Below, piece after piece: positions 675-33,418 of a DNA stretch of 34,912 nt. Under the pieces are notes generated by a model. That model did no database searches and had not been told where the DNA came from. It saw only the letters and a list, made by a program, of their open reading frames with translations. Each line of letters starts with the position of its first letter. Position 1 is the stretch's first letter. The stretch is from Actinopolymorpha alba DSM 45243 (GTDB lineage Bacteria; Actinomycetota; Actinomycetes; Propionibacteriales; Actinopolymorphaceae), in NCBI RefSeq assembly GCF_000373925.1, contig NZ_KB892799.1, positions 1 to 34,912 on the forward strand, in the 5' to 3' direction. A program made the translations under genes and the position numbers.

Positions 675-2075
675 TCAATGCGGGCTTGCGTCCGTGGGCG
701 GCGTACCTTTTGCCGCCTCGGGAGCGAGGCGGTGCAGGACGCGTTCCATAAAACGGTCGTACGGAAGGCTCAACCCCTGCGTGGCAATCGGGTCGGGCTG
801 GCCGGCGACCGCGAGCGTGTCGGCGGTCCAGGCGTCGAGTTCGGCCCGCAGCCGAGCGACCCGTTGCGGCTCCTCCGCCGCGAGGTCCTGCCGCTCACCC
901 GGATCGGCTGTGAGGTCGAAGAGTAACGGATCGGGACGGCGCGGCCGCCCGTACAGATCCGGCAGCGGCTCTCCCCCAGCGTCATGTGTCACCGGAACGA
1001 TCAGTTTCTCCGTCGCCGTCCGCCACGCCACCGACGCCTGCCGGGTCGACTCGGTGGAGACGACGTAAGGCCGGATCGATCGAGCCGATCCGCTCAGCAA
1101 CGGAAGCACACTGCGTCCCGTCAACGGATAAGGCGGCAATTCGAGATTGGCGAGTTCACACAAGGTGGGAAGCACGTCCTCGTGTGAGACAAGGGCATCG
1201 CACCGGCCGCGCTCGCCTGACGGCGTTCGCAGCATCATCGTGGTCCTGATGACCGCGTCGTAGAGGCCGTGGTGGTCGAAGTACAACCCACCCTCACCGA
1301 AACACTCGCCGTGGTCCGACACCAGCAGCACCACGGTGTCATCCCAGCCGCGGCTGGCGCGCAGCCCGTCGAGGAGCCGGCCCACCTGGGTGTCGACCTG
1401 GGTGATCTCCCCGTCGTACTGCGCGACAATGTAGGCGTAGTCATCGGGATGCCGCAGCTTCATGTCGGCAACGAACGCGTCGTAGTAGTCTGGATGGATC
1501 GCCCGGACCTCCGACATCTCCACCGGACCAGAGCCCGGCTCGTAGTGGAGGGTGTCGTACGGCGGCAGCGGACCGTACGGCGTGTGCGGGTCCCAATAGT
1601 GGATGAACAGAAACAGCGGTTCCTCACGTGCCCCTTGGACAAACGACAGGGCACGGTCGGTGAGCTGCCGGCTCTGGTCACCAAACGGCGCGTAGAGAAA
1701 GCCGGAGTAGTGGTCGTATCCCCGCGCGAACCAGGTGCCGCGCCCAGCCCCCTGGACGACCAGGTTGTCGCAGGCGACGGTGAGATAGCCGCCGGCCTTG
1801 GCGAGTTGGGACAGAAGCTGGATCTTCGCGTCGAGCGGATGGCCGCCCGGGTGGCTGACAACCTGGTGATGGTACGGATGCAGGCCGGACAGCAGGGTCG
1901 TGAACGCTGGCGTGGTAGGGATCCCGGCCGCGAACGCCTGGTCGAACACAACGGACTGCTCGGCCAACCGGTCGACCGCGGGTGACGTCGGCCGCGGATA
2001 GCCATAGCAGCCAAGGTGATCCGGCCGTAGCGTGTCGACCGCGATCACGACGATGTCTGGTCGCTTGGCGGGCAT
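675..2075 (-). CDS. Sulfatase-fold hydrolase (alkaline phosphatase superfamily) with Thr nucleophile position
   Basis: A 466-residue protein of the PF00884 sulfatase fold. The N-terminal metal site is at IAVDTLRPDHLGCYGY (D14), and the second metal cluster is VSDHGE (D254, H255) with FDHHGLYD (about 267-273). HYWDPHTPYG near 160 is also typical. The signature segment reads T54-T-P-A-F-T-T-L-L-S-G, whereas FGly-dependent sulfatases have C/S-x-P-S-R. The modified Cys is therefore a Thr, as in phosphodiesterase or phosphotransferase branches of the superfamily. The substrate is unknown, perhaps a sulfo- or phospho-sugar; true sulfatase activity is doubtful. There is no signal peptide, so it should be cytoplasmic. 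AAAGGAG lies 5 bases or less upstream of the ATG. It is the last gene of the five-gene minus-strand operon, 9 bp after the preceding stop. Confidence 0.88.
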   Translation of the reverse strand: MPAKRPDIVVIAVDTLRPDHLGCYGYPRPTSPAVDRLAEQSVVFDQAFAAGIPTTPAFTTLLSGLHPYHHQVVSHPGGHPLDAKIQLLSQLAKAGGYLTVACDNLVVQGAGRGTWFARGYDHYSGFLYAPFGDQSRQLTDRALSFVQGAREEPLFLFIHYWDPHTPYGPLPPYDTLHYEPGSGPVEMSEVRAIHPDYYDAFVADMKLRHPDDYAYIVAQYDGEITQVDTQVGRLLDGLRASRGWDDTVVLLVSDHGECFGEGGLYFDHHGLYDAVIRTTMMLRTPSGERGRCDALVSHEDVLPTLCELANLELPPYPLTGRSVLPLLSGSARSIRPYVVSTESTRQASVAWRTATEKLIVPVTHDAGGEPLPDLYGRPRRPDPLLFDLTADPGERQDLAAEEPQRVARLRAELDAWTADTLAVAGQPDPIATQGLSLPYDRFMERVLHRLAPEAAKGTPPTDASPH

Positions 2076-2084
2076 GGCGCTCCT

Positions 2085-3172
2085 TTAGCTCGCCAGATCG
2101 ACCGGCGCAAAGCTGATCCGGCGACCCTCACGCGCGGACTCGTACGCCGCAAGGATCATCTCCACGCACACCTTGCCCTCCTCGGCGGTGGCCAGCGGCC
2201 CGCGCCGGTCATGCAGGTAGTCGACGAGCGGACGCGGCACCGCGGCGATCCGGCTGCCGTGCGGGGTGTCAGCTGGAAACCCGAGGTCCTGCCAGTCGGG
2301 CTCACCACGCCGGAAGAGCTTCAGGGCCGTGGCGCCCGGTGGTCGGGGCAACGCCGACGACACCAGGTCGCCGTAGTTCTGCACGATCACCCCTTCGTCA
2401 CCGTAGATCTCGGTCGTCGCCTCGGCCGCCAGCATCGTCGAGCTGTTGAGCAGGATGCCGATCTCCTTGTTCGCAAAGCGATAGAGGGCCACGCCGTTGT
2501 CGTCGGGCGCCGTGTCGGTGACCACGTTGTCGATCTCGGCGAGCACGCTCACCGGGCGGCCGAGAAGCCACAGGAACCAATCGGCCGCGTGGGAGGCGTC
2601 GTCCATGAACATGCCGAGGTTCTGGACCGGATCGATGTGCCAGTTGCCGGGCCGGGCGAAGTTCGGGTCGAGCAGCATGGGGATGGCGTGCCGACGGCGG
2701 ACGACGGCGATTCGGCCGACGGCACCCTCGTCGAGCAGCGCCTTGATCTTCTGGTTCACCGGATCGGCACGCATCTGGTAGCACATACTGAACTTCACGC
2801 CGTGCTCGCGGACGGCCGCGATGATGGCATCGCAGTCCGGCAGCGTCAACGCCATCGGCTTCTGCAGCAGAACATGCTTGCCGGCCGCGGCCGCCGCGAC
2901 CACATGCTCGGCGTGCTTGTTCGTCGGGCTGGTGACGATGACCGCGTCGATGTCGGTACGCGCGAGCAGCTGGTCGAGGTCGGCCTCGAACGACAGACCG
3001 AACCGCCGGCATCCCTCCTGCCCGCGGTCGCGGTCGTCGTCCCAGCCGGCGACCGCGACCGCGCCGTCGAGACCCGCGATCGTTGTCAAGTACGCGTTGA
3101 CATGGGCATGCGCGAAGCTGATGACACCGATGCGTACCGGCTCGCGGCGTTCTTCTGGTTGTTCTACTGAGG

Positions 3173-3176
<4 letters not shown>
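2085..3176 (-). CDS. Gfo/Idh/MocA family oxidoreductase (atypical NAD loop)
   Basis: A 363-residue NAD(P)-dependent dehydrogenase-type protein. It has an N-terminal Rossmann domain, VIVTSPTNKHAEHV near 80, the LLQKPMAL motif near 105 in place of the usual EKP, and a C-terminal alpha/beta domain that includes the MDDASHAADW helix usual in this family. The dinucleotide loop is GVISFAHAHVNAY rather than GxGxxG, as in a subgroup of the family; cofactor use is thus less certain. Its ATG overlaps the stop of the upstream sulfatase-like gene (ATGA), implying translational coupling. It likely oxidises or epimerises a sugar or cyclitol processed with its operon partners. The specific substrate cannot be read from the sequence. 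Confidence 0.88.
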
Positions 3177-4587
<1,411 letters not shown>

Positions 4588-4591
<4 letters not shown>

Positions 4592-5574
4592 CCGGACACC
4601 TCCTCGACCGATCCGCCCTCGAACGAACGGATCGCGGCCTCGATCACTTCCTGTGCGGCCAGGCCATCCTCGCCCGACGCGTCCAGCGGTCCGCCGGAAC
4701 TCGTCTGCTCGACGAACCGGTCGATGCGGTTGCGGAAGGTCTGCCCGAACCCCTCCATGCCGCCCATGATCGGGTTGTCGATCACGAGCTTCTCCGGTGA
4801 TATACGCGGAAAGAACTCCAGGCGTTCGAAGACGTTGTCGATCACGAACCGGCCCGCGCTGCCGCCGACCTCGCACCGCTCGATCGGGTGGAGCCCACTC
4901 GCGTCGTAGCTGCCGGTGAGATGACCGACCGCACCGCTGGCGAACTGCATGTTGATCGAAGCGTTGGACCAGATCGTGCGACCGGGGCCCTTGTGGAGGA
5001 ACGCTTGCACCTTCGTGATCGGCCCGCCGAAGTAGCGCATCACGTCGATCGAGTGCGGATGCAACGCCCGCAGATGGAACCATGGCGAGGTCTCGTTCGG
5101 GTTGTTGATCCAGAGCGCCATGTTGACGAAAAGAACCTCGCCGAGTGCGCCGTCCTCCTGCAGCTTCTTCGCCCGCGCGGCGGCCGGCGTGAAGCGGTGG
5201 TTGAGGTTGACGCCGAGGAGCACCCCCTTCTCCTTCGCCCGCTGGACCATCTCTCTGGCCTCGACGATGCTGTTGGAGATCGGCTTCTCGACGAGGACGT
5301 GCTTACCGGCGTCGAGCAGCCGCACGGTGGGTTCGTAGTGGTGACCGCCGTTCTCCGGACCCGCGGTCGCCACGCTCACCGCGTCGATCTCTTCTGAGGC
5401 GATTAGCTTGTCCAGGTCGTAATAGGCGGGTACGCCGTACTGCTGAGCGACCGGATCGACGCGCTCGGGCAGCAGGTCGCACACCGCGACGAGTTCGGCG
5501 TTCTTGTTCTCGGCGTACCACCGCGCGTGCGTGCGTCCGATGCCGCCAAGGCCGACGACCGCGACTCGAAGCAT
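4588..5574 (-). CDS. Gfo/Idh/MocA family oxidoreductase (canonical)
   Basis: A 328-residue sugar or cyclitol dehydrogenase-type protein beginning MLRVAVVGLGGIGRTHA, a canonical GxGGxG NAD(P)-binding loop. It also carries GKHVLVEKPIS (EKP lysine near 96) and NLNHRF, and the segment LRALHPHSIDVMRYFGG resembles the family's catalytic His helix. I chose ATG 5574 rather than an upstream ATG at 5679 because GGAGGAG lies 7 bases before it and the extra 35 residues are arginine-rich and unlike the family. It follows the isomerase gene after 64 bp and overlaps the next gene by ATGA. Likely role: redox step in the same sugar pathway. Confidence 0.9.
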
Positions 5575-5638
5575 TCTTGGTCTCCTCCTTCTCGACCGCC
5601 GTCCAGCGGCCTCCATGGGTGTGACTGCTTCGGCGGGC

Positions 5639-6433
5639 TCAGCTGTTGAGCTCGGCCAGGCAACGGGAGAGGTACCCACGACTCTCGGCCGCGATGCTCG
5701 CCGCCTGTGCGAGCGAGTACGACCCGGCGCCGATCACCTCGAGGTTGAGCGGACCGGCGTAGCCGACGTCGCGCAGCGCCCGGAGGGTCGCGGGAATGTC
5801 GACGGCGCCGCGGCCGGGAACCTGGGTGGGCGGCGGGCCGACCGCGCGTTCGCGGCTCGCACAGTCGCGGAAGTGGGACGTGATGATCCGCTCGCCCCAA
5901 CGGTCGGCGATCTCCGGCGGCTCCTCGTCGGCCCGGAACAAGTGGCTCGGGTCGAAGTTGAGCCCCAGAGCCGGCTCATCCACCTCACTCATCAGGCGGA
6001 GCGCGGTCTCACCGTTGTAGATCGCCTGGCCGACATGGGGTTTGACCGCGAGCCGCAGGTCGTACTGTCCGGCCAGCTTGGCGAGCTCGCGCAGGTGGGC
6101 GATCGCCTTGACGGTGGACTCCTCGTCCCCCGAAACGCCACCGGAACCGATGTTGACGATCGGGACCTGAAGCCGGGTGGCGAGGTCGAAGACCTGATCG
6201 AGCCGCTCCCGGTCGGTCGACGCCGCCTCGATCGCGGTCGCGTGGAGTCCGCGGTCGGACAGGAGCTGGATCACCCGCCGGATGGTGGCGGTGTCGTCAT
6301 CGGGGGACACGTGCTCACACATGCCCTTGATGACGGCGAGCTCGACGTACTCATAGCCGGCGAAGGCGATCTGGTCGAGGGCGGTCTCAAGGTCGACCGC
6401 GGCGAACAGAACTGTGTTGCACCCCAATTTCAT
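5639..6433 (-). CDS. Sugar phosphate isomerase/epimerase (xylose isomerase-like TIM barrel)
   Basis: A 264-residue AP_endonuc_2-type TIM barrel. It starts MKLGCNTVLF; GYEYVELAVIKG contributes the first barrel Glu, and VKPHVGQAI, NFDPSHLF (Asp/His ligands) and SHFRDC supply the metal site in strands 5-7. The C-terminal strand LNLEVIGAG holds the last Glu. A divalent metal and an acyclic sugar or inosose-type substrate are expected for the family; the exact reaction is unknown. CAGGGGGAA precedes the ATG by about 9 bases. It is the first gene of the five-gene operon, so the promoter should lie in 6434-6700. Confidence 0.87.
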   Translation of the reverse strand: MKLGCNTVLFAAVDLETALDQIAFAGYEYVELAVIKGMCEHVSPDDDTATIRRVIQLLSDRGLHATAIEAASTDRERLDQVFDLATRLQVPIVNIGSGGVSGDEESTVKAIAHLRELAKLAGQYDLRLAVKPHVGQAIYNGETALRLMSEVDEPALGLNFDPSHLFRADEEPPEIADRWGERIITSHFRDCASRERAVGPPPTQVPGRGAVDIPATLRALRDVGYAGPLNLEVIGAGSYSLAQAASIAAESRGYLSRCLAELNS

Positions 6434-12656: not shown

Positions 12657-12958
12657 ACGTATCCCTCGACGCGCCGGGTACAACCCACCGCAATCACTGC
12701 CCCAGCTGCCTGTGGTCCAGGCACCTTGACCGTAACGTCCCCGGGGATCGAAAATCCGATTGCCCGGGCGGAATGGAACCCATCGCGGTGACCGTCCGCG
12801 GCAAAGGCCGATGGGTCCTCATTCACCGCTGTACGAAGTGCGGCCGGCTACGACTCAACCGCACCGCCGGCGACGACAACCAGCTCCTGCTGGTACGCCT
12901 CGCCGCACTCCCCCTCACAATGCCGCCGTTCCCGTTCCAGGGCCTGCAGGACGACTAG
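12614..12958 (+). CDS. RNHCP domain-containing zinc-ribbon-like protein
   Basis: A small protein (up to 114 residues) with the diagnostic block HRNHCPSCLWSRHLDRNVPGD (given here across residues 25-45) that defines the RNHCP family. Upstream is CSHCG and downstream HRCTKCGRLRLN; the Cys pairs CxxC, CxxC and CxxC suggest zinc binding. C-terminal LLLVRLAALPL completes the usual length. The function of the family is not established to my knowledge. The start is uncertain: TTG 12614 is the only in-frame start codon near the conserved region, without a Shine-Dalgarno, and it lies within the 27-codon ORF at 12573-12656. Confidence 0.8.
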   Translation: MAFARSFQCSHCGVDVSLDAPGTTHRNHCPSCLWSRHLDRNVPGDRKSDCPGGMEPIAVTVRGKGRWVLIHRCTKCGRLRLNRTAGDDNQLLLVRLAALPLTMPPFPFQGLQDD

Positions 12959-12988
12959 GATCTGCTTGGAGCGAGCGTTGACTAAAAA

Positions 12989-13012
12989 GGCCGTGAGCAC
13001 TGGGCCACGGCC
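12989..13012 (+). terminator. Candidate terminator hairpin after RNHCP gene
   Basis: GGCCGTG and CACGGCC pair across a 10-base loop, 30 bp after the RNHCP stop. A run of A precedes it (AAAAAGG) and no T-tract follows on the plus strand, so a rho-independent role is weak. Confidence 0.4.
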
Positions 13013-13110
13013 CATTCATCAACCAACGCCTCATCCGCACCTAACCCGACCCGGGGAAATGGACGTCGCGCTCACGTAGTCATGCGGGCCGGTAGGGTGA
13101 GCCGTCACCG

Positions 13111-13962
13111 TTGACGAGAGCGGGGTACGAGTTGCCGGAAGCCACGGTGTTGCGAGAGTCCGAACACTGGCAGATCGTGCGGCCTCCACACTCCCTCACC
13201 GAAGGACACGTCGCGCTGGTCATGCGGCATCCCAACCATGGTGGGCATTTGACCGTCAACATGGCTGCTGACCTGATCGCCACGTATCGCATCGCCCGCG
13301 GAGGTCTGCACGCCGTACTTGGCTGCGACGGATTCGCGCTGAGCTTCGCCCATTCCTGGCAACCGTACGGTCGTGGCATCGGCGAGCCGTCAGCCGACTG
13401 GGGCCACCGCCCTACCATCCATGTCTTCGGTCGCAGTCGTACGGAGCGCCTCAAGCCGATTCGAGTGATGGCGCTTCCTGTTCACGATCGCCAAGCACCA
13501 ATCTCACCAACCGAGCAAGCCGAGCTTGACCGACAGCTCACTATCGCGTTCGCCAACGCCGACACGACCAACTCACCCGTCATACTCCACACAACTGACC
13601 CGAGCCCTTGCGACGGCTGTGCCCCTGAGGTCGAGCGAGACCAGGAACTCTGGCGGTCTGACGGCGTTCGTGCCATCCGGCCGCGCCAGCCGCTGCTGGA
13701 TGCGAACATCCTGGTGATGCCGCTCCGGCACGTCGAGAGTCCCGGATCGCTGCATGCGCACGAGATCGTGTCGTACGCCGAACGGCTCCGCGAGGTGCGT
13801 GCCCAGTTCGCCCGGCGGTACGGAGCCAGCGGGCTGAGCTGCTTCCTCAACGATGGGACTCGTGCCGGCCAGGAGACGCCGCACGTACACGTCTTCGGCC
13901 GCGCTGTCGACGAACCCCAGAACCCGTTCGAACTCCTCGCCCAACGTCTCCGCGCGCGGTAA
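13111..13962 (+). CDS. Tandem HIT-like (histidine triad fold) protein
   Basis: A 283-residue protein built as two HIT-fold halves. In half one, HWQIVRPPHSLTEGHVALV resembles the HIT N-terminal strands and GHRPTIHVFGR (about 104-114) aligns with the triad motif but with Thr-Ile between. In half two, SGLSCFLNDGTRAGQETPHV and HVHVFGR (about 252-268) reproduce the Q-x-x-P-H-x-H of HIT hydrolases, although the third His is replaced by Phe. Family members are nucleotide hydrolases or transferases; activity here is uncertain because both triads are altered. The TTG 13111 start has GGTGAG about 9 bases upstream; another start is possible. Confidence 0.7.
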   Translation: MTRAGYELPEATVLRESEHWQIVRPPHSLTEGHVALVMRHPNHGGHLTVNMAADLIATYRIARGGLHAVLGCDGFALSFAHSWQPYGRGIGEPSADWGHRPTIHVFGRSRTERLKPIRVMALPVHDRQAPISPTEQAELDRQLTIAFANADTTNSPVILHTTDPSPCDGCAPEVERDQELWRSDGVRAIRPRQPLLDANILVMPLRHVESPGSLHAHEIVSYAERLREVRAQFARRYGASGLSCFLNDGTRAGQETPHVHVFGRAVDEPQNPFELLAQRLRAR

Positions 13963-26036: not shown

Positions 26037-26834
26037 ATGCACATCGACCTCAGGGGACGCGTCGCCGTGGTGACCGGCGCCGGGCGCGGGATCGGTCGCG
26101 CACTGGTCCGTCGCCTCGCCACCGAGGGCGTCACCACGGTCGCGTTGGACGTTCACGCCGACGACCTGGACACGCTGGGCACCCAGCTCGCCGCCGAAGG
26201 TGCGCCTGCCAGCCAGTTCGTCTGCGACGTCACCGACCTGGCCCGGATCCAGGAGGTCGTCAAGGAGACCGCACGCAGACACGGCCGCGTCGACATTCTG
26301 GTCAACAATGCCGGCATCACCGCGGGCGGGCCCGTCGACGTCCTGTCCGAGGAGAGCTGGCGCGACTGTCACGACGTCAACCTCACCGGAACGTTCCTGA
26401 TGTGCAAGGCCGTCGTCCCGGTGATGAAGGCGCAGCGTGCCGGACGCATCATCAACGTCTCGTCGTTCGCCGCGATCGTGCCCACCGCCGGGCACTCGGC
26501 CTACGCGTCGGCGAAGGCGGCGGTCGCGCACTTCACCCGTGCGCTGGCCGGCGAACTCGGGCCGTGGAACATCACCGCCAACGCGTACGCACCGGGCATG
26601 GTGCCCACGCAGATGAACCACTTCGCCGAACGCCCGCCGGCCGAGCAGGACCGCCTGCTCGACCTGCTCACCATCCGCCGCTGGGGTACGCCGGACGACA
26701 TCGCCAACCTGGTCTGCTTCCTCGCCTCAGACCAGGCCGGCTACGTGACGGGAACGCTGATCGACGTGAGCGGCGGCAAGCTCGCCACCCAGGTGCCGCG
26801 GGCGGCCTACGACCAGGCGGCCCGAACGACCTGA
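26037..26834 (+). CDS. Short-chain dehydrogenase/reductase
   Basis: A 265-residue classical SDR. The cofactor loop is VVTGAGRGIGRAL (TGxxxGIG, residues 12-24), with DVTDLARI after strand 3, LVNNAGITAGG (NNAG), VSSFAA (catalytic Ser region) and YASAK (Tyr and Lys), then NAYAPGMVPT. Sugar, polyol or 3-oxoacyl substrates are possible; the position next to a rhamnose mutarotase-type gene favours an aldose dehydrogenase, as an inference. GGGAGG sits 4 bases before ATG 26037. It is convergent with the mutarotase gene. Confidence 0.88.
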   Translation: MHIDLRGRVAVVTGAGRGIGRALVRRLATEGVTTVALDVHADDLDTLGTQLAAEGAPASQFVCDVTDLARIQEVVKETARRHGRVDILVNNAGITAGGPVDVLSEESWRDCHDVNLTGTFLMCKAVVPVMKAQRAGRIINVSSFAAIVPTAGHSAYASAKAAVAHFTRALAGELGPWNITANAYAPGMVPTQMNHFAERPPAEQDRLLDLLTIRRWGTPDDIANLVCFLASDQAGYVTGTLIDVSGGKLATQVPRAAYDQAARTT

Positions 26835-26849
26835 CGACCCCTGGGGTCG
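26835..26849. terminator. Short GC palindrome right after the SDR stop
   Basis: CGACCCCTGGGGTCG starts at the first base after the TGA. It can form a tight stem and may act as a terminator or mRNA 3' end, but there is no U-tract. Confidence 0.35.
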
Positions 26850-26905
26850 CACCTACTCCCTCATCCGGGGGACGTCGCGAATTCGACCTTGCTTGGCGGG
26901 AACTC

Positions 26906-26991
26906 AATGATCACGTATACGTGGTCATTGCCTGCCTTGCATGGCATCGGCACCGCGTGAGGCACCTAATGACCACGTATACGTGATCATT
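26906..26991. repeat. Pair of 24-bp palindromes in inverted orientation
   Basis: Sites at 26906-26929 and 26968-26991 are exact reverse complements of one another. Each is also nearly self-complementary, of the form AATGAyCACGTATACGTGrT plus CATT, with one mismatched pair per site. Their centres are 62 bp apart. GCCT/AGGC pairs extend the long stem inward. They lie between the convergent SDR and mutarotase genes. They could be operators for a dimeric regulator, a hairpin for transcript ends, or ends of a tiny mobile element. Confidence 0.85.
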
Positions 26992-27014
26992 AAGGCCGCC
27001 GCGCGCGAACGCAC

Positions 27015-27353
27015 TCACGTGCTGTCGTCTGCCACCTGGTCGCGCAAGCTCCAGACGTGCGGGAGCACCTGACCAGCCGGGCCGCTTTCGGCGCCGACGA
27101 AGTGATCGACGTACCGGCCGATGTGCGCCTGCCACGCCTCGTCAGCCGGGTCGCCCGCCAGGGCCTTCATCGCGGCTACCCAGTCGTCGCACTCGACGAG
27201 GTGGAACAGATCCCGGCCGCTGCGCCAGATCGACCAGTTCCGGATGCCGATCCGGGCGAAGCTGGCGGCGAGGTCGTCAGGAATCCGCTGGTGTTCGCGT
27301 TCGTAGTCGGCCTCGGCTCCGGGCCGCAGCACCGAGTGCAGCGGGACAATCAC
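27015..27353 (-). CDS. L-rhamnose mutarotase family protein
   Basis: A 112-residue dimeric alpha/beta (ferredoxin-like) protein of PF05336. Features are LHSVLRPGAEADYEREHQRI with the early His, then PDDLAASFARIGIRNWSIWR, DLFHLVECDDW and WQAHIGRYVD. The family interconverts anomers of L-rhamnose or related 6-deoxy sugars and also occurs in fucose and other sugar operons. GTG 27353 has GAGGGGG 4-5 bases upstream. It is divergent from the CoA-transferase operon, and a shared regulatory region (27354-27591) lies between them. Confidence 0.85.
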   Translation of the reverse strand: MIVPLHSVLRPGAEADYEREHQRIPDDLAASFARIGIRNWSIWRSGRDLFHLVECDDWVAAMKALAGDPADEAWQAHIGRYVDHFVGAESGPAGQVLPHVWSLRDQVADDST

Positions 27354-27446
27354 GTTTCCCCCTCGCTCGAACGACGATCAACGACGAACACGGTCCGGGC
27401 CGGGCAAAGCCCGGAACGCCTGGCAGAGCCCGAATCAAGGAGGACC

Positions 27447-27489
27447 TTGCTCACCATACGCAAATTCGGCCATGGTGAGCAATCGTTTG
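27447..27489. promoter_or_regulatory. Inverted repeat and LacI-type operator in the divergent sugar-locus promoter region
   Basis: TTGCTCACCAT (27447-27457) and ATGGTGAGCAA (27472-27482) are perfect 11-base arms with a 14-base spacer. Next to and overlapping the right arm is CAATCGTTTG (27480-27489), a symmetric CAAnCGnTTG core typical of LacI-family operators. The region lies between the mutarotase and CoA-transferase genes. The LacI gene at 32375 is the obvious candidate regulator. A GC hairpin (CCGGGC-AAA-GCCCGG, 27400-27414) sits just left. Confidence 0.6.
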
Positions 27490-27560
27490 TCTGCTACCTT
27501 TCTGCCCATCCCCGACAGAACCGCGTGGCGAGGAAGCTCCCCACAGTTGGCGATGCGGTC

Positions 27561-27586
27561 CGGAACGGAAACGGAACGGAACGGAG
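27561..27586 (+). repeat. (CGGAA) pentanucleotide tandem repeat before the ribosome site
   Basis: CGGAA, CGGAAA, CGGAA, CGGAA and CGGAG follow each other directly upstream of the ATG at 27592. The last unit supplies the GGAG Shine-Dalgarno. Slippage here could alter the leader, but units are outside the coding region. Confidence 0.6.
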
Positions 27587-27591
27587 CAGGC

Positions 27592-28806
27592 ATGCTCGAC
27601 CCCGAGACACCACCCGATCTGCCACTCGCCGGCGTGCGCGTACTCGACTTCAGCCAGTTCCTCGCCGGCCCGGTGGCGGCCCTTCGTCTGGCCGACCTCG
27701 GGGCGACCGTGATCAAGATCGAACGCCCCCACACCGGCGACATCGGCCGCCGGCTCGCGTTCGCCGGACGCGTCGCCGACGGCGACACCGTGTCGTTCCA
27801 CGCGATGAACCGCAACAAGCTCGGCGTCACCGCCGACCTGAAGGATCCCGACGACCTCGCCATCATCCGCCGCCTCATCGAGACCGCCGACGTCCTGATC
27901 CAGAACTTCCGTCCCGGCGTGATGGAGCGGATCGGCCTCGACCCGCAGTCGGTGGCGAAGCTCAATCCTCGCCTCGTCTACGGCAGCGCCAGCGGCTACG
28001 GCGACAGCGGTCCCTGGCGCGACCGGCCCGGCCAGGATCTCCTCGCGCAGTCGGTCAGCGGGCTCCCCTGGCTCAACGGCGGCGACGTCGACCGGCCGGT
28101 TCCGGTCGGGCTCTCGATCGCCGACCACCTGACGAGCTGCCACCTCGCCCAGGGTGTCACCGCGCTGCTCTTCCGCAGGGAACGGACCGGGCGCGGCGGA
28201 CTCGTGCAGACCAGTTTGTTCGAGGCGATGCTCGACCTGCAGTTCGAGTTGCTGAGCACCCACCTCAATGATTCGACCGTCGCGGTCAGGCGTGGCGGGA
28301 CCCACTCCGCGCACGCGTTCCTGCCAGCGCCGTACGGCACCTACCCCACCTCTGACGGCTATCTCGCCCTCGCGATGAACCCCATCCCCGAGCTCGGTCG
28401 CCTGCTCGACCTACCCCAGCTCCAGGAGATGACTGACGAGCAGATCTGGTGGGACCAGCGGGACGCCATCACCGACCTCATCGCGGACCGGCTGCGGGCC
28501 CGCACGACCGCCGACTGGCTGGCGGTACTGGACGCGGCCGACGTGTGGTGTGCGCCCGTCCTCACTCTGGAAGAGCTGGTCGCCAGCGAGGAGTTCGCGG
28601 CGATCGCCATGACCCAGCAGGTGCGGCGGGACGCCGAGCTCACCGAGAACGGCAACGACCTGCTCCTCACCACGACCCGATCACCGCTGCGGATCGACGG
28701 CCAGACGTTGCGCAGCGACCGGCCGGCCCCGAAGCTCGGCCAGCACAACGCGCTGCTCGACGAGCTGACGGACGACCGCCCGCACCGATTGGCAGCCAAC
28801 CAATGA
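27592..28806 (+). CDS. CaiB/BaiF family (class III) CoA-transferase
   Basis: A 404-residue class III CoA-transferase, which moves CoA between acyl-CoA donor and acid acceptor. It begins LAGVRVLDFSQFLAGPVAAL, has DLGATVIKIERPHTGD, SFHAMNRNKLGVTADLK, DVLIQNFRPGVMERIGL and YGSASGYGDSGPWRDR; in GQDLLAQSVSG the Asp matches the catalytic Asp of the family. The C-terminal small domain follows from about residue 230. ATG 27592 has GGAG 5 bases upstream. It overlaps the next gene by ATGA, so it is the first gene of the coupled operon. The acid substrate is likely a sugar acid or its breakdown product, as an inference. Confidence 0.9.
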   Translation: MLDPETPPDLPLAGVRVLDFSQFLAGPVAALRLADLGATVIKIERPHTGDIGRRLAFAGRVADGDTVSFHAMNRNKLGVTADLKDPDDLAIIRRLIETADVLIQNFRPGVMERIGLDPQSVAKLNPRLVYGSASGYGDSGPWRDRPGQDLLAQSVSGLPWLNGGDVDRPVPVGLSIADHLTSCHLAQGVTALLFRRERTGRGGLVQTSLFEAMLDLQFELLSTHLNDSTVAVRRGGTHSAHAFLPAPYGTYPTSDGYLALAMNPIPELGRLLDLPQLQEMTDEQIWWDQRDAITDLIADRLRARTTADWLAVLDAADVWCAPVLTLEELVASEEFAAIAMTQQVRRDAELTENGNDLLLTTTRSPLRIDGQTLRSDRPAPKLGQHNALLDELTDDRPHRLAANQ

Positions 28807-29945
28807 CCAACCTTCGAGGGATCACCTGGGAACACCCGCGCGGGCACGGCAGCATGGCCGCGGCCGCCGCGCGCTACCACCAGCTGACCGACCACGAGGT
28901 CCGGTGGGACCACCGCTCGTTGCAGGCCTTCGCCGACGCGCCCCTGGCCGACCTTGCCAGCGCGTACGACCTGCTGGTGATCGACCATCCGCACATTCCC
29001 CTCGCCGCCGATCAGGGTCTGCTGGCGCCACTCGACGGAGTGGGGTACGACGACCAGCTGGCGGAGCTTGCCCGCCACAGCGTCGGGGCGTCCCACCGCA
29101 GCTACACCCACGCCGGACACCAGTGGGCGCTGGCGAACGATGCCGCCGCGCAGGTCGCGGCGTACCGCCCGGACCTGATCTCCGACCCGCCACGAGACTG
29201 GGACGGAGTCCTTGCCCTGGCCGGTGAAGGCCGGGTGCTGTGGCCCGCGAAGCCGATCGACGCCTACTCCAGCCTCCTCACGATCGCCGCCGGCAACGGC
29301 ACTCCCCCGAACTCCCGCCCCGGCGTGTTCCTCGACGCCCAGGACGCGTACGCCGCACTCGAGCGGCTCCACCAACTCGCGGCGCAGGTCCCGTCTGACT
29401 GCCTCGTTCACAACCCCATCGAGGTGGCCGAACGCCTGGCCGCGGGCGACACGTACGCCTATTGCCCGCTGCTGTTCGGCTACACCAACTACAGCCGCGC
29501 TGGTTTCCGGCGACACCGGCTGCGCTACATCGACATTCCCTGCGATGCGAGCGGCCCGCGCGGATCCCTGCTCGGCGGTGCGGGGATCGCGGTGTCGGCG
29601 TACGCGGGCGACGTCGACGCCGCGCGGGCGTTCGCGTTCTGGGTGGCGTCGGCGGAGGCGCAGGCGGGTGTCTACTTCGACGGCGGCGGCCAGCCCGGTC
29701 ACGCGCTGGCATGGGAGGACGAGCGGCTGAACGCCGAGACGCTGGACTTCTTCCGTGGCACGAGAGCCACGCTGGAGCAGGGGTACGTCCGGCCGCGCAC
29801 CGTCGGCTACATGGCGTTCCAGGACGCGATGTCCCCGCTGGTCACCGCGACCCTCCAGGGACAGCTCAGCGACGACGAACTCCTCTCTCGACTGAACGAC
29901 AGTGCCAGGCGGTGGCTTCAGGAGGACGAGCATGCGGATCGTTGA
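28803..29945 (+). CDS. Solute-binding-protein-like protein without signal peptide
   Basis: A 380-residue protein of the type 1 sugar-binding protein fold (family 1 extracellular solute-binding). Signs are [52 protein letters not shown]-like [20 protein letters not shown], and late [20 protein letters not shown] with [13 protein letters not shown]. The N terminus starts directly at strand 1 with no hydrophobic leader, lipobox or Tat motif, and no permease genes follow. It starts at ATG 28803, overlapping the CoA-transferase stop. A cytoplasmic ligand-binding or enzymatic role is therefore implied; such proteins are annotated as ABC substrate-binding by homology only. Confidence 0.82.
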
Positions 29946-30390
29946 CCGCTGGTGGTCTGACTACGTCATTGGTGAACGCCGTCAGACCCTGGGACGCACC
30001 ATCACCGAAGCCGACGTGGTGCTCCACGCGGGCCAGACCGGCGACTTCTTCCCGCATCACCTGGACGCCGAATGGTGCGCGACGCAGCCGTTCGGCGCCC
30101 GCATCGCGCACGGCACGCTCATCCTGTCCGTCGCGGTGGGCATGACCGCCGGCGACATCAACCCGCAGGCGATGAGCTACGGCTATGACCGGATCCGGTT
30201 CGTCAAGCCGGTGTTTCTCGGCGACACCATCAGCGTGACCGCCGAGATTGTCGCGAAGGGCGACCACCGTCGCGACCCCGACCGGCTCGGCACGGTCGAC
30301 GAACTGGTCACCGTGACCAACCAGCGCGGCGAAACCGTGCTGGTGCTGACCCATCTCTACGTGGTGAACAAGAAGGAGGCGACTACCTGA
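29932..30390 (+). CDS. MaoC-like hot-dog enoyl-CoA hydratase/dehydratase
   Basis: A 152-residue MaoC-type protein. [20 protein letters not shown] then [10 protein letters not shown] (about 33-63) is the hydratase 2 motif with catalytic Asp and His. [20 protein letters not shown] follows. It should hydrate or dehydrate a CoA thioester made by the upstream CoA-transferase. ATG 29932 has AGGAGG 6 bases before; it overlaps the preceding gene by 14 bp and the next start by TGATG. Confidence 0.87.
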
Positions 30391-31259
30391 TGCACGCCTT
30401 CGGACCCGTCATCGACGCCCACCAGCATTTCTGGGACCCCTCCACCGGTGGGTACCCCTGGCTCGCCCGGGAGCCGGAGAGCATCCAGCGCGCGTTCGAC
30501 TACGCCGACCTCGCTCCCCACCTCGCGGCCTATGGCATCGACGGCACCGTGCTGGTCCAGTCCGCGGACTCCGACGAGGACACCGATGCGATGTTCGCCC
30601 AGGCCGCGGCCCACCCCGAGATCCTGGGCGTGGTGGGGTACGTCCCGCTCGAGCAACCCGCGCGGGCCGAGCGGCGACTCCAGGAACTCCTCGGCCGCGA
30701 ACGCTTCGTCGGGATCCGCAACCTGATCCACGACCAACCCGATCCCGACTGGCTCCTGCGTGCCGACGTCGCCGAAGGGCTCGCCCTCCTCGAGGCACAC
30801 CAGGTGCCGTTCGACCTGGTGGCGGTGCTCCCCCGGCACCTGGAGCACGTGGCGTACCTCTCCGAACAGTTCCCCAACCTGACGGTGGTCATCGACCACC
30901 TCGCCAAGCCACCCATCGGTACGCCGCGGAGCGAGCCCTGGACCTCCCTCCTCCGCGACGCGGCGGACAACCCCCGCGTTGTGGCGAAGGTGTCCGGCCT
31001 CTACGCCGCCACCGGCGACCCGGCTGCCTTTACCGCCGACGACCTTGCGCCGTGGATCGCTTCCGCGCTGGAGTTCTTCGGGCCGTCCCGGCTGATGGTC
31101 GGGAGTGACTGGCCGGTCGCCGTCGTCGCCGGAGGCTACGACCGCGTGATGGGCGCCGTCATCGAGGTGGTCACGGCGTACGGACCCGAGGTAGCGGGGC
31201 CGCTCCTCGGTGGTACGGCGATCGCCACCTACGGTCTCACCCTGTCGGTGACGGCATGA
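30390..31259 (+). CDS. Amidohydrolase 2 family, L-fuconolactonase/aldonolactonase type
   Basis: A 289-residue TIM-barrel amidohydrolase. VIDAHQHFWDP (His-x-His), YPWLARE, GVVGYVPLEQP, GIRNLIHDQPDPDWLL, VIDHLAKP, KVSGLYA and MVGSDWPV are all typical of L-fucono- and L-rhamnono-lactonases. It would open a sugar lactone formed by a dehydrogenase; the sugar is not proven. Its ATG overlaps the MaoC stop (TGATG). It gives the clearest sugar-acid signature of the operon. Confidence 0.87.
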   Translation: MHAFGPVIDAHQHFWDPSTGGYPWLAREPESIQRAFDYADLAPHLAAYGIDGTVLVQSADSDEDTDAMFAQAAAHPEILGVVGYVPLEQPARAERRLQELLGRERFVGIRNLIHDQPDPDWLLRADVAEGLALLEAHQVPFDLVAVLPRHLEHVAYLSEQFPNLTVVIDHLAKPPIGTPRSEPWTSLLRDAADNPRVVAKVSGLYAATGDPAAFTADDLAPWIASALEFFGPSRLMVGSDWPVAVVAGGYDRVMGAVIEVVTAYGPEVAGPLLGGTAIATYGLTLSVTA

Positions 31260-32335
31260 TCACCGAGCTGAGCGCGGTCTCCGACGCCGTCGCCATCAGC
31301 GCACCGCCCTCAGTGCACCGCCCGATCGCCGTCGTCGGCGCCGGCGCGATCATGGACGTGGCCCACCTGCCCGCCTACCGCGCGGCCGGCCTTCCGGTCG
31401 TCGGCGTCTTCGACATCGACCACGAGCGCGCCCGGGCCGTGGCCGAGCGACACGAGATCCCGACCGTCTACCGCGATCTTGCCGAAGTCCTCGCCGACGA
31501 CACCGTCGAGGTGGTCGACATCGCCGTACCAGCCGCCCGGCAGGAGGAGGTCGCCACGGCTGTCATCCAGGCCGGCCGGCACGTGCTCGCCCAGAAGCCG
31601 TTCGCCCCCGACCCGCCCACCGGAATCCGGCTGGTCGAACTCGCCGAGTCGATGCACACCGTGCTCGCTGTCAACCAGCAACTCCGCTTCGACGAGGGCA
31701 TGGCGGCGGCACACCGGATGGTCGAGCTCGGCTGGATCGGAGACATCACCGCGTTCTCCATCACCGTCGATATCTGGACCGAGTGGTCTGACTGGCCATG
31801 GCTGCTCGAGACCGAGCGGCTGGAGATCATGAACCACTCCATCCACTACCACGACGTCGTTCGCTGGTTCCTCGGAGAGCCGGCAGGGGTGTTCTGTGCG
31901 GCCGGCCGGCTGCCGGGACAGCGGGCGGTCGGGGAAACCCGGACGATCTCGACGTACCTCTACGACTCCGGGGTGAGCGCCGTCGTCCACGCCAACCACA
32001 CGAACGACCACGGCGACAACAAGGCGGAGTTCCGCATCGGCGGTACGTCGGGAGCGATCCGCGGCACGCTCGGGCTCCTTTACGACTATCCGCACGGTCG
32101 GCCCGACACCCTCGAGGTCCACAGCACGGTGCTCCCGACCGACGGATGGCTGCCGTACCCCGTCACCACCCGGTGGATCCCCGATGCCTTCCTCGGGCCG
32201 ATGGCCTCGGTGTTGTGGGCCGTCGCCGACGGCCAACCGCTGCGATCCTCCGGACTGGACAACCTCGGGACCCTGCGCCTGGTCGAGGCGCTCTACACCT
32301 CGATCGCCACGAAGCAGGTCGTGGCTCTCGGCTGA
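31256..32335 (+). CDS. Gfo/Idh/MocA family oxidoreductase
   Basis: A 359-residue dehydrogenase-type protein. RPIAVVGAGAIMDVAHLPAY (GxGAIM loop near residue 27) and HVLAQKPFAP (QKP lysine) define the Rossmann half. NHSIHYHDVVRWFLGEP is the catalytic His helix region, and the C-terminal beta-sheet domain ends with LGTLRLVEALYTSI. NAD(P)-dependent oxidation of a sugar, lactol or cyclitol is likely. It starts by ATGA overlap with the lactonase gene, ending the coupled set; 39 bp separate it from the LacI gene. Confidence 0.88.
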   Translation: MITELSAVSDAVAISAPPSVHRPIAVVGAGAIMDVAHLPAYRAAGLPVVGVFDIDHERARAVAERHEIPTVYRDLAEVLADDTVEVVDIAVPAARQEEVATAVIQAGRHVLAQKPFAPDPPTGIRLVELAESMHTVLAVNQQLRFDEGMAAAHRMVELGWIGDITAFSITVDIWTEWSDWPWLLETERLEIMNHSIHYHDVVRWFLGEPAGVFCAAGRLPGQRAVGETRTISTYLYDSGVSAVVHANHTNDHGDNKAEFRIGGTSGAIRGTLGLLYDYPHGRPDTLEVHSTVLPTDGWLPYPVTTRWIPDAFLGPMASVLWAVADGQPLRSSGLDNLGTLRLVEALYTSIATKQVVALG

Positions 32336-32374
32336 GGCCGTCGGGTGGCCGCGACCGGTCGGTACGATTGCCGG

Positions 32375-33418
32375 GTGGTACGCCTCGTCGACATCGCGAA
32401 GGCGGCGGGTGTGTCCGTCAGCCTGGTATCGCGGGTTCTCAACGACGACCCGGCGGCGCGGGCGACCGAGGAAACCCGGCGGCGGGTGCGCGACACGGCG
32501 GCCGCCATGGGCTACCGGCCCCACCACGCCGCCCGGGCGCTCAAACTCGCGCGTACCAACACGATCGCCCTGGCTGTCCCCGTGCTCACCAACGCGATCT
32601 TCTCCGAACTCCTCCGCGGCGTGGAGGACGAGGCGCGCGAACTCGGCTACACCTTGATGTTCGCCCGGTCGGAGTCGTTCGACGAGCAACGGCAGATGTC
32701 ACAGCTGGTCGAGGAGGGGCGGGTCGACGGGTTCCTCCTGCAACGGCCCGATGACGAAACCGACGAGTCGCTGGCTCGCCGGATCGGCAATGCTCCCGTC
32801 GTACTCATCAACTCCGTGCTACCCGGCCACCCGGGCAGCGTGATGATCGACGACCACGGCGCGGCCGCGCTTGCCACCGAGCACCTGCTCAGCCTCGGTC
32901 ACCGGCGGATCGGGCTCGTCAACGGCTTCCAGACAACCGAAACGGCGCGGCGCCGGGGTGCCGGCTTCGCGCAGACGTTGGCTGCAGCTGGCCTCGATCC
33001 GGAACTGTCGCCCGTCACCCACTTCGGCTACGCGCCCGAGTCGGCGGCGGCGGAGCACGCGGTGACCGAGATATTCGGCGATGATCGTCCCAAGCGCGAG
33101 CAGCCAACGGCGCTGGTGGTCGCCAACGTCAACGCGGCTTTGGCCGTCCTCACCTGTCTGCGGCGGCATGGCCTCGGGGTTCCTGACGACGTTTCGGTCG
33201 TCGCGATTCACGACGCCTGGACCGCCGAGCACTCCTGGCCGCCGGTCACCACGGTCCGGTTGCCTGTGTATGAGCAGGGCCAGACCTCGGTGCGGATGCT
33301 GCATGACGCGCTGCGGGGTATCGCGGCGGGCGACACGATCATCGAGGAGCCGCCGCCGATCCTCGTCGAGCGGGAGTCGGTACGCCCGTTGCGTGCCCGA
33401 CGTACGGCTCCTCGCTAG
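32375..33418 (+). CDS. LacI family transcriptional regulator
   Basis: A 347-residue LacI-type repressor. The HTH is RLVDIAKAAGVSVSLVSRVL (residues 2-21), the hinge helix is HHAARALKLART, and the ligand domain follows from IALAVPVLTNAIF with HLLSLGHRRIGLVNGF and a PBP1-like C-lobe. GTG 32375 was chosen; TACGAT lies 7 bases upstream, fitting a leaderless mRNA. It likely controls the sugar locus from the operator at 27480-27489, and the effector is probably a pathway intermediate. Confidence 0.9.
   Translation: MVRLVDIAKAAGVSVSLVSRVLNDDPAARATEETRRRVRDTAAAMGYRPHHAARALKLARTNTIALAVPVLTNAIFSELLRGVEDEARELGYTLMFARSESFDEQRQMSQLVEEGRVDGFLLQRPDDETDESLARRIGNAPVVLINSVLPGHPGSVMIDDHGAAALATEHLLSLGHRRIGLVNGFQTTETARRRGAGFAQTLAAAGLDPELSPVTHFGYAPESAAAEHAVTEIFGDDRPKREQPTALVVANVNAALAVLTCLRRHGLGVPDDVSVVAIHDAWTAEHSWPPVTTVRLPVYEQGQTSVRMLHDALRGIAAGDTIIEEPPPILVERESVRPLRARRTAPR

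Follow-up and report, generated by a model that had tools for sequence, protein, structure and literature searches.

The non-phosphorylating L-fucose, L-rhamnose and pentose pathways (FucM, FucA, FucB, FucC, FucF and FucG; COG3970 KDP dehydratase) are one described system to which the locus studied here can be compared, and the available portions of two accounts place the sugar-acid dehydratases of such pathways in the enolase, IlvD/EDD and UxaA/GarD families (PMC6336799, PMC9795676). Another is the CaiB/CaiD carnitine system of Enterobacteria. According to the accessible part of its description, CaiB cycles CoA between product and substrate, CaiD removes the hydroxyl group and the ligase CaiC accompanies them (PMC2131755). 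The word "coa" does not occur in the available text of PMC6336799, PMC9795676 or PMC11199699, and our search of the open-licence literature retrieved neither a description of a CoA-transferase acting in a route for sugar acids or fucose nor a paper for the S. meliloti fucose locus tags. On this search, the CoA-dependent dehydration of sugar acids proposed below is apparently undescribed.

The window, which is the whole stretch of 34,912 nucleotides analysed from the soil actinobacterium Actinopolymorpha alba DSM 45243, resembles the non-phosphorylating sugar pathways in having a RhaM-family mutarotase, a sugar dehydrogenase and an amidohydrolase related to the lactonases (Table 1). The original prediction, made from the sequence alone, had named the SDR, RhaM, CoA-transferase, MaoC, lactonase-type hydrolase and Gfo/Idh families, and Pfam agrees with all of them.

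Table 1. Genes and repeat of the locus (positions are those of the window)
Feature	Position	Strand	Evidence
SDR oxidoreductase, candidate sugar or 2-keto-3-deoxy-acid dehydrogenase	26037..26834	+	adh_short, 209 bits
RhaM-family mutarotase	27015..27353	-	PF05336, 61 bits (Pfam cut-off 23.4)
Inverted repeat, 11-nt perfect arms, 14-nt spacer, upstream of CoA-transferase	27447..27482		
Class III (CaiB/BaiF) CoA-transferase	27592..28806	+	PF02515, 338 bits
Cytosolic SBP-like protein, MBP fold (model)	28803..29945	+	SBP_bac_8 (Pfam)
MaoC hydratase/dehydratase, PaaZ-type, distinct subfamily	29932..30390	+	PF01575, 80 bits
Amidohydrolase, L-fucono-1,5-lactonase-like	30390..31259	+	PF04909 (Amidohydro_2), 148 bits
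Gfo/Idh/MocA sugar dehydrogenase	31256..32335	+	PF01408, PF22725
LacI-family regulator	32345..33418	+	PF00356, PF13377

The CoA-transferase and MaoC genes had also been predicted to be coupled in one operon. The overlaps are real, but the intervening gene at 28803-29945, which is coupled to both, had been overlooked: ATGA overlaps occur at the CoA-transferase/SBP-like and lactonase/Gfo junctions, the SBP-like frame runs 14 bases into the MaoC frame, and the MaoC/lactonase junction reads TGATG. The divergent RhaM gene on the opposite strand lies outside this operon, and the SDR gene, whose 3' end is 757 bp upstream of it, is possibly a separate transcription unit. The score above the PF05336 cut-off places the protein encoded at 27015-27353 in the L-rhamnose mutarotase family; an NCBIfam search with it gave no match. 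Many NCBIfam SDR models match the SDR, none being decisive for its substrate, and the Gfo/Idh/MocA dehydrogenase has no NCBIfam equivalog above cut-off. The hydrolase retains its predicted family through Amidohydro_2 but loses the name L-fuconolactonase; because it scores 172.9 bits with NF052480, below the equivalog cut-off of 400, we call it only a related amidohydrolase.

The CoA-transferase matches PF02515 over its full length (337.9 bits, profile positions 1-366 of 366), and its Asp149 falls in the alignment at the position of the presumably catalytic Asp in formyl-CoA transferase 10uh. The GxD..Q motif of this conserved Asp is kept in 81 of the 82 CoA-transferase frames of at least 400 bits. 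No NCBIfam equivalog scored above cut-off, and the L-carnitine CoA-transferase model NF002914 gave 93 bits against a cut-off of 413. The MaoC protein (PF01575, 80.2 bits) has an Asp and a His five residues apart, Asp38 and His43, which presumably act as the dyad of the hydratase and are invariant in 13 of the 13 sequences of the subfamily alignment. Of the best 80 loci, taken from 577 confirmed relatives, 79 have the motif of this subfamily, HAGxTGDxxPHHxD. A profile of the same alignment gave 261 bits with a solved MaoC protein, 4ffu, aligning over positions 2-148 of 150, and 91 bits with the C-terminal domain of PaaZ; the PDB file labels 4ffu only "oxidase". PaaZ, whose substrate is oxepin-CoA, is a fusion with an aldehyde dehydrogenase.

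The AlphaFold model of the overlooked 28803-29945 protein (pLDDT 92.6) has the full fold of MBP and TMBP, the maltose/trehalose ABC solute-binding proteins, and Foldseek returned MalE3 at ranks 1 and 2 and TMBP 1eu8 at rank 8. Unlike MBP and TMBP, the protein has no room for a signal sequence, because its fold begins at residue 3, and it has a motif of its own (GITWEHPRG in the window, GxxWxHxRG across the family) at which the aligned relatives also start. Structure and alignment thus gave no sign of an export signal, and on this model the SBP-like protein is cytosolic. A further difference is that its gene adjoins that of the CoA-transferase in most loci, lying within 200 bp of it on the same strand in 46 of 68 (among the best 80 of 577 MaoC relatives). 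We dropped the idea of a mere CoA-transferase subunit, as the SBP-like gene occurs without a CoA-transferase directly beside an enolase-superfamily sugar-acid dehydratase in L047 and directly beside a mannonate dehydratase in L079. The family raises a question of its own, that of the role of a transport-type binding protein in the cytosol.

Conservation in the SBP alignment A1 was nowhere strong enough for a scan of the collection, which was therefore made with MaoC alone. Gene calls came from a codon-trained caller, and the gene labels behind most counts from our own BLAST queries and profiles, not from Pfam. CoA-transferase, cytosolic SBP-like protein and hydratase form a recurrent module that occurs in many phyla. 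Among the best 80 of the 577 confirmed MaoC relatives, the CoA-transferase is found in 71 loci, the SBP-like protein in 73 and both in 68; for the 56 of these loci that span at least 17 kb the counts are 54 for the CoA-transferase, 54 for the SBP-like protein, 41 for Gfo and 29 for the lactonase. Across the entire genome of 7.98 Mb, class III CoA-transferases account for 11 match rows, or about 0.03 per 20 kb, so that their association with MaoC in 54 of 56 large loci is far above chance. In successive 2-kb distance bins the CoA-transferase counts are 20, 20, 10, 3 and 5 (46 loci of at least 20 kb, among the same best 80). The CoA-transferase is missing from 9 of the 80 loci and the SBP-like protein from 7, several of them ending at contig edges; with about 10 kb on both sides, L139 lacks both, L155 the CoA-transferase and L159 the SBP-like protein. 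In G240 the MaoC and SBP-like genes lie far apart, and in L144 and L166 no C-C cleaving enzyme was recognised within the locus. Clustering of the unlabelled frames in the loci gave many apparent shadow frames.

The neighbours that the module has repeatedly are sugar transporters, mutarotases, sugar dehydrogenases and lactonases. That the CoA-transferase/hydratase pair recurs with sugar-oxidation genes in many phyla supports the core idea of the original prediction, a CoA-thioester step in the breakdown of a sugar acid. Thirty stretches (L031-L060) were chosen by hand among the matches, leaving out weaker ones; all 12 close relatives among them (L031-L042) retain CoA-transferase, SBP-like protein, MaoC, lactonase and Gfo, and 11 of the 12 a LacI regulator. 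Plasmid neighbourhoods were also hand-picked, from PLSDB gene tables that are incomplete, and L077, L080 and L081, which have no PLSDB annotation, were labelled with our own profiles. Individual parts of the module are exchanged: a crotonase replaces MaoC in a sister branch, the mutarotase is RhaM or DUF4432, and the lactonase is Amidohydro_2 or, in L046, SMP-30 (Pfam). These swaps argue that CoA thioesters are really formed along a route for sugar acids. Pfam also placed an AMP-binding enzyme of the acyl-CoA-ligase type within the operons of L043 and L044 and a thiolase beside MaoC in L044; the AMP-ligase, SMP-30, RraA and thiolase labels were confirmed.

For the CoA-transferase tree we used frames scoring at least 400 bits under a profile from module members, with 12 late loci and the outgroups admitted above 150 bits; frames longer than 700 amino acids were kept out of the main set. 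The window CoA-transferase lies in a 125-member clade of module CoA-transferases, apart from five others of its own genome, with a support of 1.0 that partly reflects selection, because the input frames were chosen by the module-member profile and all 5 outgroups came from one genome. With each sequence labelled by its nearest hydratase (L177-L181 by hand), this one clade serves both the MaoC and the crotonase branches. The likeness to CaiB/CaiD lies in the pairing of a class III CoA-transferase with an enoyl-CoA hydratase; the crotonase branch has the same enzyme families, and L043 and L044 add the ligase. In contrast to CaiB/CaiD, the neighbours of the module are sugar uptake and oxidation genes, and the window has MaoC and the additional SBP-like protein. 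We therefore propose that the module may work like CaiB/CaiD without being such a system itself.

The original prediction had rested on the absence of a sugar-acid dehydratase and an aldolase. For the known dehydratases this holds on the window contig, where tblastn with nine dehydratase queries (IlvD, AraD, UxaA, UxuA, FucD and enolase-superfamily sequences; E 1e-5; other dehydratase families would escape them) gave no match, and where no locus of the non-phosphorylating L-fucose type, with dehydratase and KDF-processing genes together, was found. It fails for the genome, which has a FucD homologue elsewhere (G000:C1:264153-265481, 57% to the FucD of L031), adjoined by AKR and lactonase homologues (L064), and on C79 an FAH homologue (59%), whose neighbouring SDR shares 62% identity with the SDR that adjoins the L031 FAH. 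FucD shares the locus with the module, together with FAH and SDR, in 4 of the 12 close relatives, which led us to drop the view that the CoA pair simply replaces FucD, and it occurs in 12 of the 56 MaoC loci of at least 17 kb (among the best 80 of 577). Several proteobacterial MaoC loci carry MR/MLE, FucD or UxaA. An enolase-superfamily gene lies in the operon of 5 of the 17 crotonase loci among L031-L060 (L048, L052, L053, L057 and L058), some of which were also searched for IlvD and UxaA, and tblastn found another in the crotonase locus L080; the same nine queries gave no sugar-acid dehydratase in the crotonase loci L045, L055, L081, L082 and L181. Since known dehydratases share so many loci, the pair does not simply replace them, and one has to suppose that it handles a different stereoisomer or a different step.

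Three loci argue that the module can occupy the dehydratase slot. L177, L178 and L179 combine CoA-transferase, SBP-like protein and hydratase with an FAH protein assigned to the 2-keto-3-deoxypentonate dehydratase kind (53-59% mutual identity), and over the 30, 17 and 27 kb covered, respectively, neither annotation nor the nine tblastn queries (E 1e-5) revealed a sugar-acid dehydratase; the FAH step is thus present and the known dehydratase missing, in three loci only. The L177 FAH is related to 2-keto-3-deoxy-D-arabinonate dehydratase 2q18, a weak match of 65 bits, and a close PDB relative of the three proteins, 9kkt, is labelled only FAH family. Among six FAH loci without the CoA-transferase, hand-picked among 50 of 279 records, four have a sugar-acid dehydratase and none was found in two.

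Our main reading, to which we give a probability of roughly 0.4, is that CoA-transferase and hydratase make up a two-enzyme, CoA-cycling dehydratase acting on an aldonate. Starting from the gene content, families, coupling and conservation observed directly, we infer its reactions and substrate as follows. The sugar would probably be a 6-deoxyhexose such as L-fucose or a stereoisomer, which RhaM would mutarotate, Gfo/Idh or the SDR would oxidise, and the amidohydrolase would convert to the aldonate by opening the lactone. The CoA-transferase would then pass CoA to the aldonate; the thioester would render the C2 proton acidic, and MaoC could remove water across C2-C3 of the 2,3-dihydroxyacyl-CoA to give an enol and hence 2-keto-3-deoxyaldonyl-CoA, from which the CoA-transferase would hand CoA to a further aldonate, in the manner of CaiB and CaiD. 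Known enzymes (SDR plus FAH hydrolase, an aldolase, or an FAH dehydratase) could take up the 2-keto-3-deoxy acid so released, and the cytosolic SBP-like protein may deliver bound aldonate to the enzymes of the dehydration. To our knowledge 2-keto-acyl-CoA intermediates are unusual, which counts against this proposal, as do the known dehydratases in the same loci, the fucose-pathway homologues elsewhere in this genome, the MaoC loci that lack the CoA-transferase or the SBP-like protein, the separated genes of G240 and the C-C cleaving enzymes not recognised in L144 and L166. The CoA-thioester step of the original prediction accordingly gains from the recurrence, the MaoC/crotonase swap and the dehydratase slot of L177-L179, and loses the argument from an absent dehydratase.

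Part of the evidence would also suit a CoA pair that serves a non-sugar acid that comes in together with the sugar, such as a substituent (acyl or ether) on a glycan from plants or algae, with two pathways under one regulator. GH95 lies beside the CoA-transferase in L041 and was found with our own profile in L114-L116, L142, L166 and L176, L075 has an alpha-L-fucosidase and L078 acetylxylan and sialate esterases; the thiolase beside MaoC in L044 fits as well, and the dehydratases of the same loci would then simply be the normal sugar route. We consider this unlikely, though the best of the alternatives, as L177 and L179, in the parts read, lack genes for glycan degradation and combine a sugar-oxidation set with a dehydratase slot otherwise empty, and as SBP-like proteins also adjoin plain sugar-acid dehydratases (L047, L079). 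The same L177-L179 loci, with module and FAH and no dehydratase found, speak against a CoA step placed after a normal dehydratase, where a 2-keto-3-deoxy or 2,4-diketo acid, or lactate or glycolate, would become a CoA ester to be hydrated or cleaved. The co-occurrence of the module with FucD and FAH in L031, L036, L038, L040, L129 and L146 and the D-lactate dehydrogenase in L075 are what such a step would predict, but we know of no precedent for a MaoC or crotonase enzyme acting on lactoyl- or glycolyl-CoA and find this reading improbable. Least probable to us is a CoA-dependent epimerisation, by dehydration and rehydration on the other face or by a racemase activity of the CoA-transferase family, that would let an otherwise unaccepted aldonate enter the FucD or MR/MLE route: it explains why known dehydratases are present in the same loci, alpha-methylacyl-CoA racemases are among the class III relatives, and the accessible part of PMC2131755 describes a carnitine racemase activity for CaiD, yet it leaves L177-L179 unexplained, where no dehydratase was found to take over.

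Going beyond the CoA-cycling reading, we suggest, more tentatively, that class III CoA-transferase, MaoC or crotonase and the ABC-derived cytosolic binding protein constitute a fourth, CoA-dependent kind of sugar-acid dehydratase present in many phyla, which has escaped notice through the annotation of its parts as CoA-transferase, fatty-acid and transport proteins. If so, the route would close gaps left by missing dehydratases in sugar pathways of numerous bacteria, put right many erroneous annotations (the PDB MaoC relative as "oxidase", SBP-like proteins as "extracellular") and offer metabolic engineering a further route to 2-keto-3-deoxy acids.

Upstream of the CoA-transferase gene, the inverted repeat at 27447-27482 is a candidate for the operator of the locus. 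Palindromes at 26899-26994 were also considered as LacI operators and dropped: the 22-bp palindrome is a dispersed repeat, with 203 copies genome-wide at up to 3 mismatches against 0 for the reversed control, and the copies often occur as pairs 62 bp apart.

The gene content of the original prediction, sugar-oxidation genes together with a CoA-transferase and a MaoC hydratase, is borne out by Pfam in the window, which is the entire contig G000:C93 of a 7.98-Mb genome. The observation was right but incomplete, as it overlooked an SBP_bac_8 gene for a solute-binding-protein-like (SBP-like) protein. Because the frames overlap from the CoA-transferase gene through the Gfo/Idh sugar dehydrogenase (Gfo) gene, this stretch reads as a single operon. 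A LacI gene lies downstream of it, and the mutarotase RhaM is encoded on the opposite strand.

Positions of features in the window and in related loci
Feature	Locus	Position	Context	Basis
SBP_bac_8 protein gene	window	28803-29945	between CoA-transferase and MaoC	Pfam
Putative operon	window	27592-32335		overlapping frames
Two 22-bp palindromes (ATGAYCACGTATACGTGRTCAT)	window	26899-26994	spacing 62 bp	
Putative sulfated-sugar-like cluster	window	675-6433, minus strand	2 sulfatases, 2 Gfo/Idh dehydrogenases, xylose-isomerase-like TIM barrel protein; same contig as module	
RuBisCO-like protein	L145	4473-5762	adjoins SBP-like/CoA-transferase/MaoC genes	Pfam
RraA-family protein	L129	10429-11073	in operon	Pfam
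RraA-family protein	L098	15046-15756	in operon	Pfam
Thiolase	L044 (Actinopolymorpha)	12694-13827	adjoins MaoC; locus also with AMP-binding ligase and crotonase	

The 22-bp palindrome is a dispersed REP-like repeat, with 203 genome copies at up to three mismatches (reversed control, 0) and several pairs 62 bp apart.

The SBP-like protein was found in 30 of 245 genomes of the order (E ≤2e-40), 12 of which, besides the window genome, carry it at 58-65% identity to the window protein. CoA-transferase, SBP-like protein, MaoC, lactonase and Gfo are kept in all 12 fetched relatives (L031-L042). Four of these (L031, L036, L038 and L040) also encode L-fuconate dehydratase (FucD), a fumarylacetoacetate-hydrolase-type (FAH) protein, an SDR and another SBP-like protein. 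In L036 the FAH scores 296 bits against the 2,4-didehydro-3-deoxy-L-rhamnonate hydrolase model, under the cut-off of 500. GH95 adjoins the CoA-transferase in L041 (Pfam) and L042. The MaoC subfamily occurs in 16 of the 245 genomes, every one among the 30, and in 15 of the 16 its gene lies within a few kb of the SBP-like gene.

When MaoC alone was used to scan genome contigs, 577 loci were confirmed. Judged by record title, the best 80 belong to Actinomycetota, Acidobacteriota, Chloroflexota, Bacillota (Paenibacillus), Verrucomicrobiota, Planctomycetota, Bacteroidota, Pseudomonadota and further groups. Among these best 80, 71 contain the CoA-transferase, 73 the SBP-like protein and 68 both, as same-strand neighbours at most 200 bp apart in 46 of the 68. 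Of the 56 spanning 17 kb or more, 54 contain the CoA-transferase, 54 the SBP-like protein, 41 Gfo, 29 lactonase, 15 RhaM, 12 FucD and 8 FAH. Counting against the proposal, MaoC without partners close by was seen in L131, L139 and G240. Among loci that lack a partner, L139, L155 and L159 are flanked by about 10 kb in each direction, and others end early.

The CoA-transferase is partnered by MaoC in one branch and by a crotonase in the other (e.g., L045, L048, L049, L055, L082, L177 and L179). Across the window and L031-L060, MaoC of the module subfamily was present in 16 loci, crotonase in 17, and both in L043, L044 and L054; the window genome has one of each branch (L045, on contig C47, being the crotonase locus). 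In a CoA-transferase tree (n=130), the 125 module members form a single clade (support 1.0) apart from five other CoA-transferases of the window genome. Within the tree, 102 MaoC-linked members group in one clade (0.98), and a second clade (0.91) comprises 21 crotonase-linked plus two MaoC-labelled members. Since these hydratase folds replace each other at the same place, the module step is best explained as hydration or dehydration of an acyl-CoA.

The module and FAH occur together in Variovorax (L177), Pseudosulfitobacter (L179) and on a Streptomyces plasmid (L178), the FAH proteins sharing 53-59% identity with the L177 one. The FAH of L177 matches 9kkt, labelled FAH family, at 427 bits and the 2-keto-3-deoxy-D-arabinonate dehydratase 2q18 weakly (65 bits), and is probably a 2-keto-3-deoxypentonate dehydratase of the COG3970 kind described in an excerpt of PMC6336799. 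Such an enzyme requires a 2-keto-3-deoxy acid as input. Annotation and tblastn with nine dehydratase queries revealed no known sugar-acid dehydratase in the stretches covered of L177 (30 kb), L179 (27 kb) or L178 (17 kb). Among six FAH loci without the CoA-transferase, four have a classical dehydratase (UxaA; MR/MLE; IlvD; IlvD, MR/MLE and AraD), and the same searches found no known sugar-acid dehydratase in the other two. The SBP-like protein adjoins a sugar-acid dehydratase in L047 and L079, where no CoA-transferase was found. Together, the gap in L177-L179, the control loci and L047/L079 suggest that CoA-transferase plus hydratase and a classical dehydratase can fill the same slot.

An excerpt of PMC2131755 describes the dehydration of carnitine as its CoA ester by CaiB and CaiD, with CaiB moving CoA from product to substrate. 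By family chemistry, an aldonate version would remove water from a 2,3-dihydroxyacyl-CoA across C2-C3 to give the enol of a 2-keto-3-deoxyacyl-CoA; the CoA-transferase Asp and MaoC Asp/His are conserved. We file the locus as a putative CaiB/CaiD-like CoA cycle placed in sugar catabolism, and class it outside both the carnitine and the fucose systems.

Against this proposal, known dehydratases share the locus with the module: in 4 of the 12 close relatives with MaoC, 12 of the 56 large MaoC loci (FucD alone; among the best 80 of 577), 5 of the 17 crotonase loci of L031-L060 and L080. This sharing calls for one of three alternatives: a second substrate, an epimerase role or a later step. The original argument from dehydratase absence was wrong for the genome (FucD homologue, E ≤1e-30) and for its relatives (FucD in 4 of 12 loci). 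A FucD homologue was found in all 13 module genomes (12 relatives plus the window genome) versus 76 of 245 overall, which is weak evidence, as many genus g5 genomes without a close module share it. The idea of a CoA-thioester route for a sugar acid survives in a stronger form, on comparative evidence.

The SBP-like protein has a complete maltose/trehalose-binding fold (predicted model, pLDDT 92.6, pTM 0.90), with MalE3 (6dtq, TM 0.82) at rank 2 and TMBP (1eu8, TM 0.83) at rank 8 in Foldseek. In the model the fold starts straight away, and a start motif, GxxWxHxRG, is common to its relatives (64 of the 69 frames scoring 380 bits or more); on both counts it is read as a predicted cytosolic protein. 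A second family, SBP2, occurs in the same operons of L031, L036, L038, L040 and L043 (397-411 aa; Pfam places those of L036 and L043 in SBP_bac_1) and, by profile, in 22 of the best 80 MaoC loci. SBP2 proteins start without a visible signal sequence.

Among the best 80 of 577 loci, the RraA-family cluster occurs in 14 and that of the L145 RuBisCO-like protein in 10. As a candidate aldolase, the RraA-family protein might carry out the cleavage that is otherwise missing. In L144 and L166 no cleaving enzyme was recognised, a point against the proposed route. In the verrucomicrobial locus L140, a DHDPS-family aldolase and a microcompartment shell protein accompany FucD, RhaM, RhaT, Gfo, CoA-transferase, SBP-like protein and MaoC. 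A distant second MaoC paralogue lies near the CoA-transferase in 17 of the 80, including L120, L122, L129, L140, L149, L153 and L161; the three that were called are 172-177 aa long. On plasmids, the SBP-like family appears in 145 records, including Sinorhizobium, Roseibium and Rufibacter, and annotated loci hold varying subsets of CoA-transferase, SBP-like protein, MaoC, RhaM, Gfo, amidohydrolase, sugar ABC transporter, MR/MLE, SDR, FAH and L-fuconate dehydratase. On pSymB of one S. meliloti strain (L072, ml21, versus L086, ml28), an IS21-type insertion sequence lies immediately downstream of the CoA-transferase/SBP-like pair.
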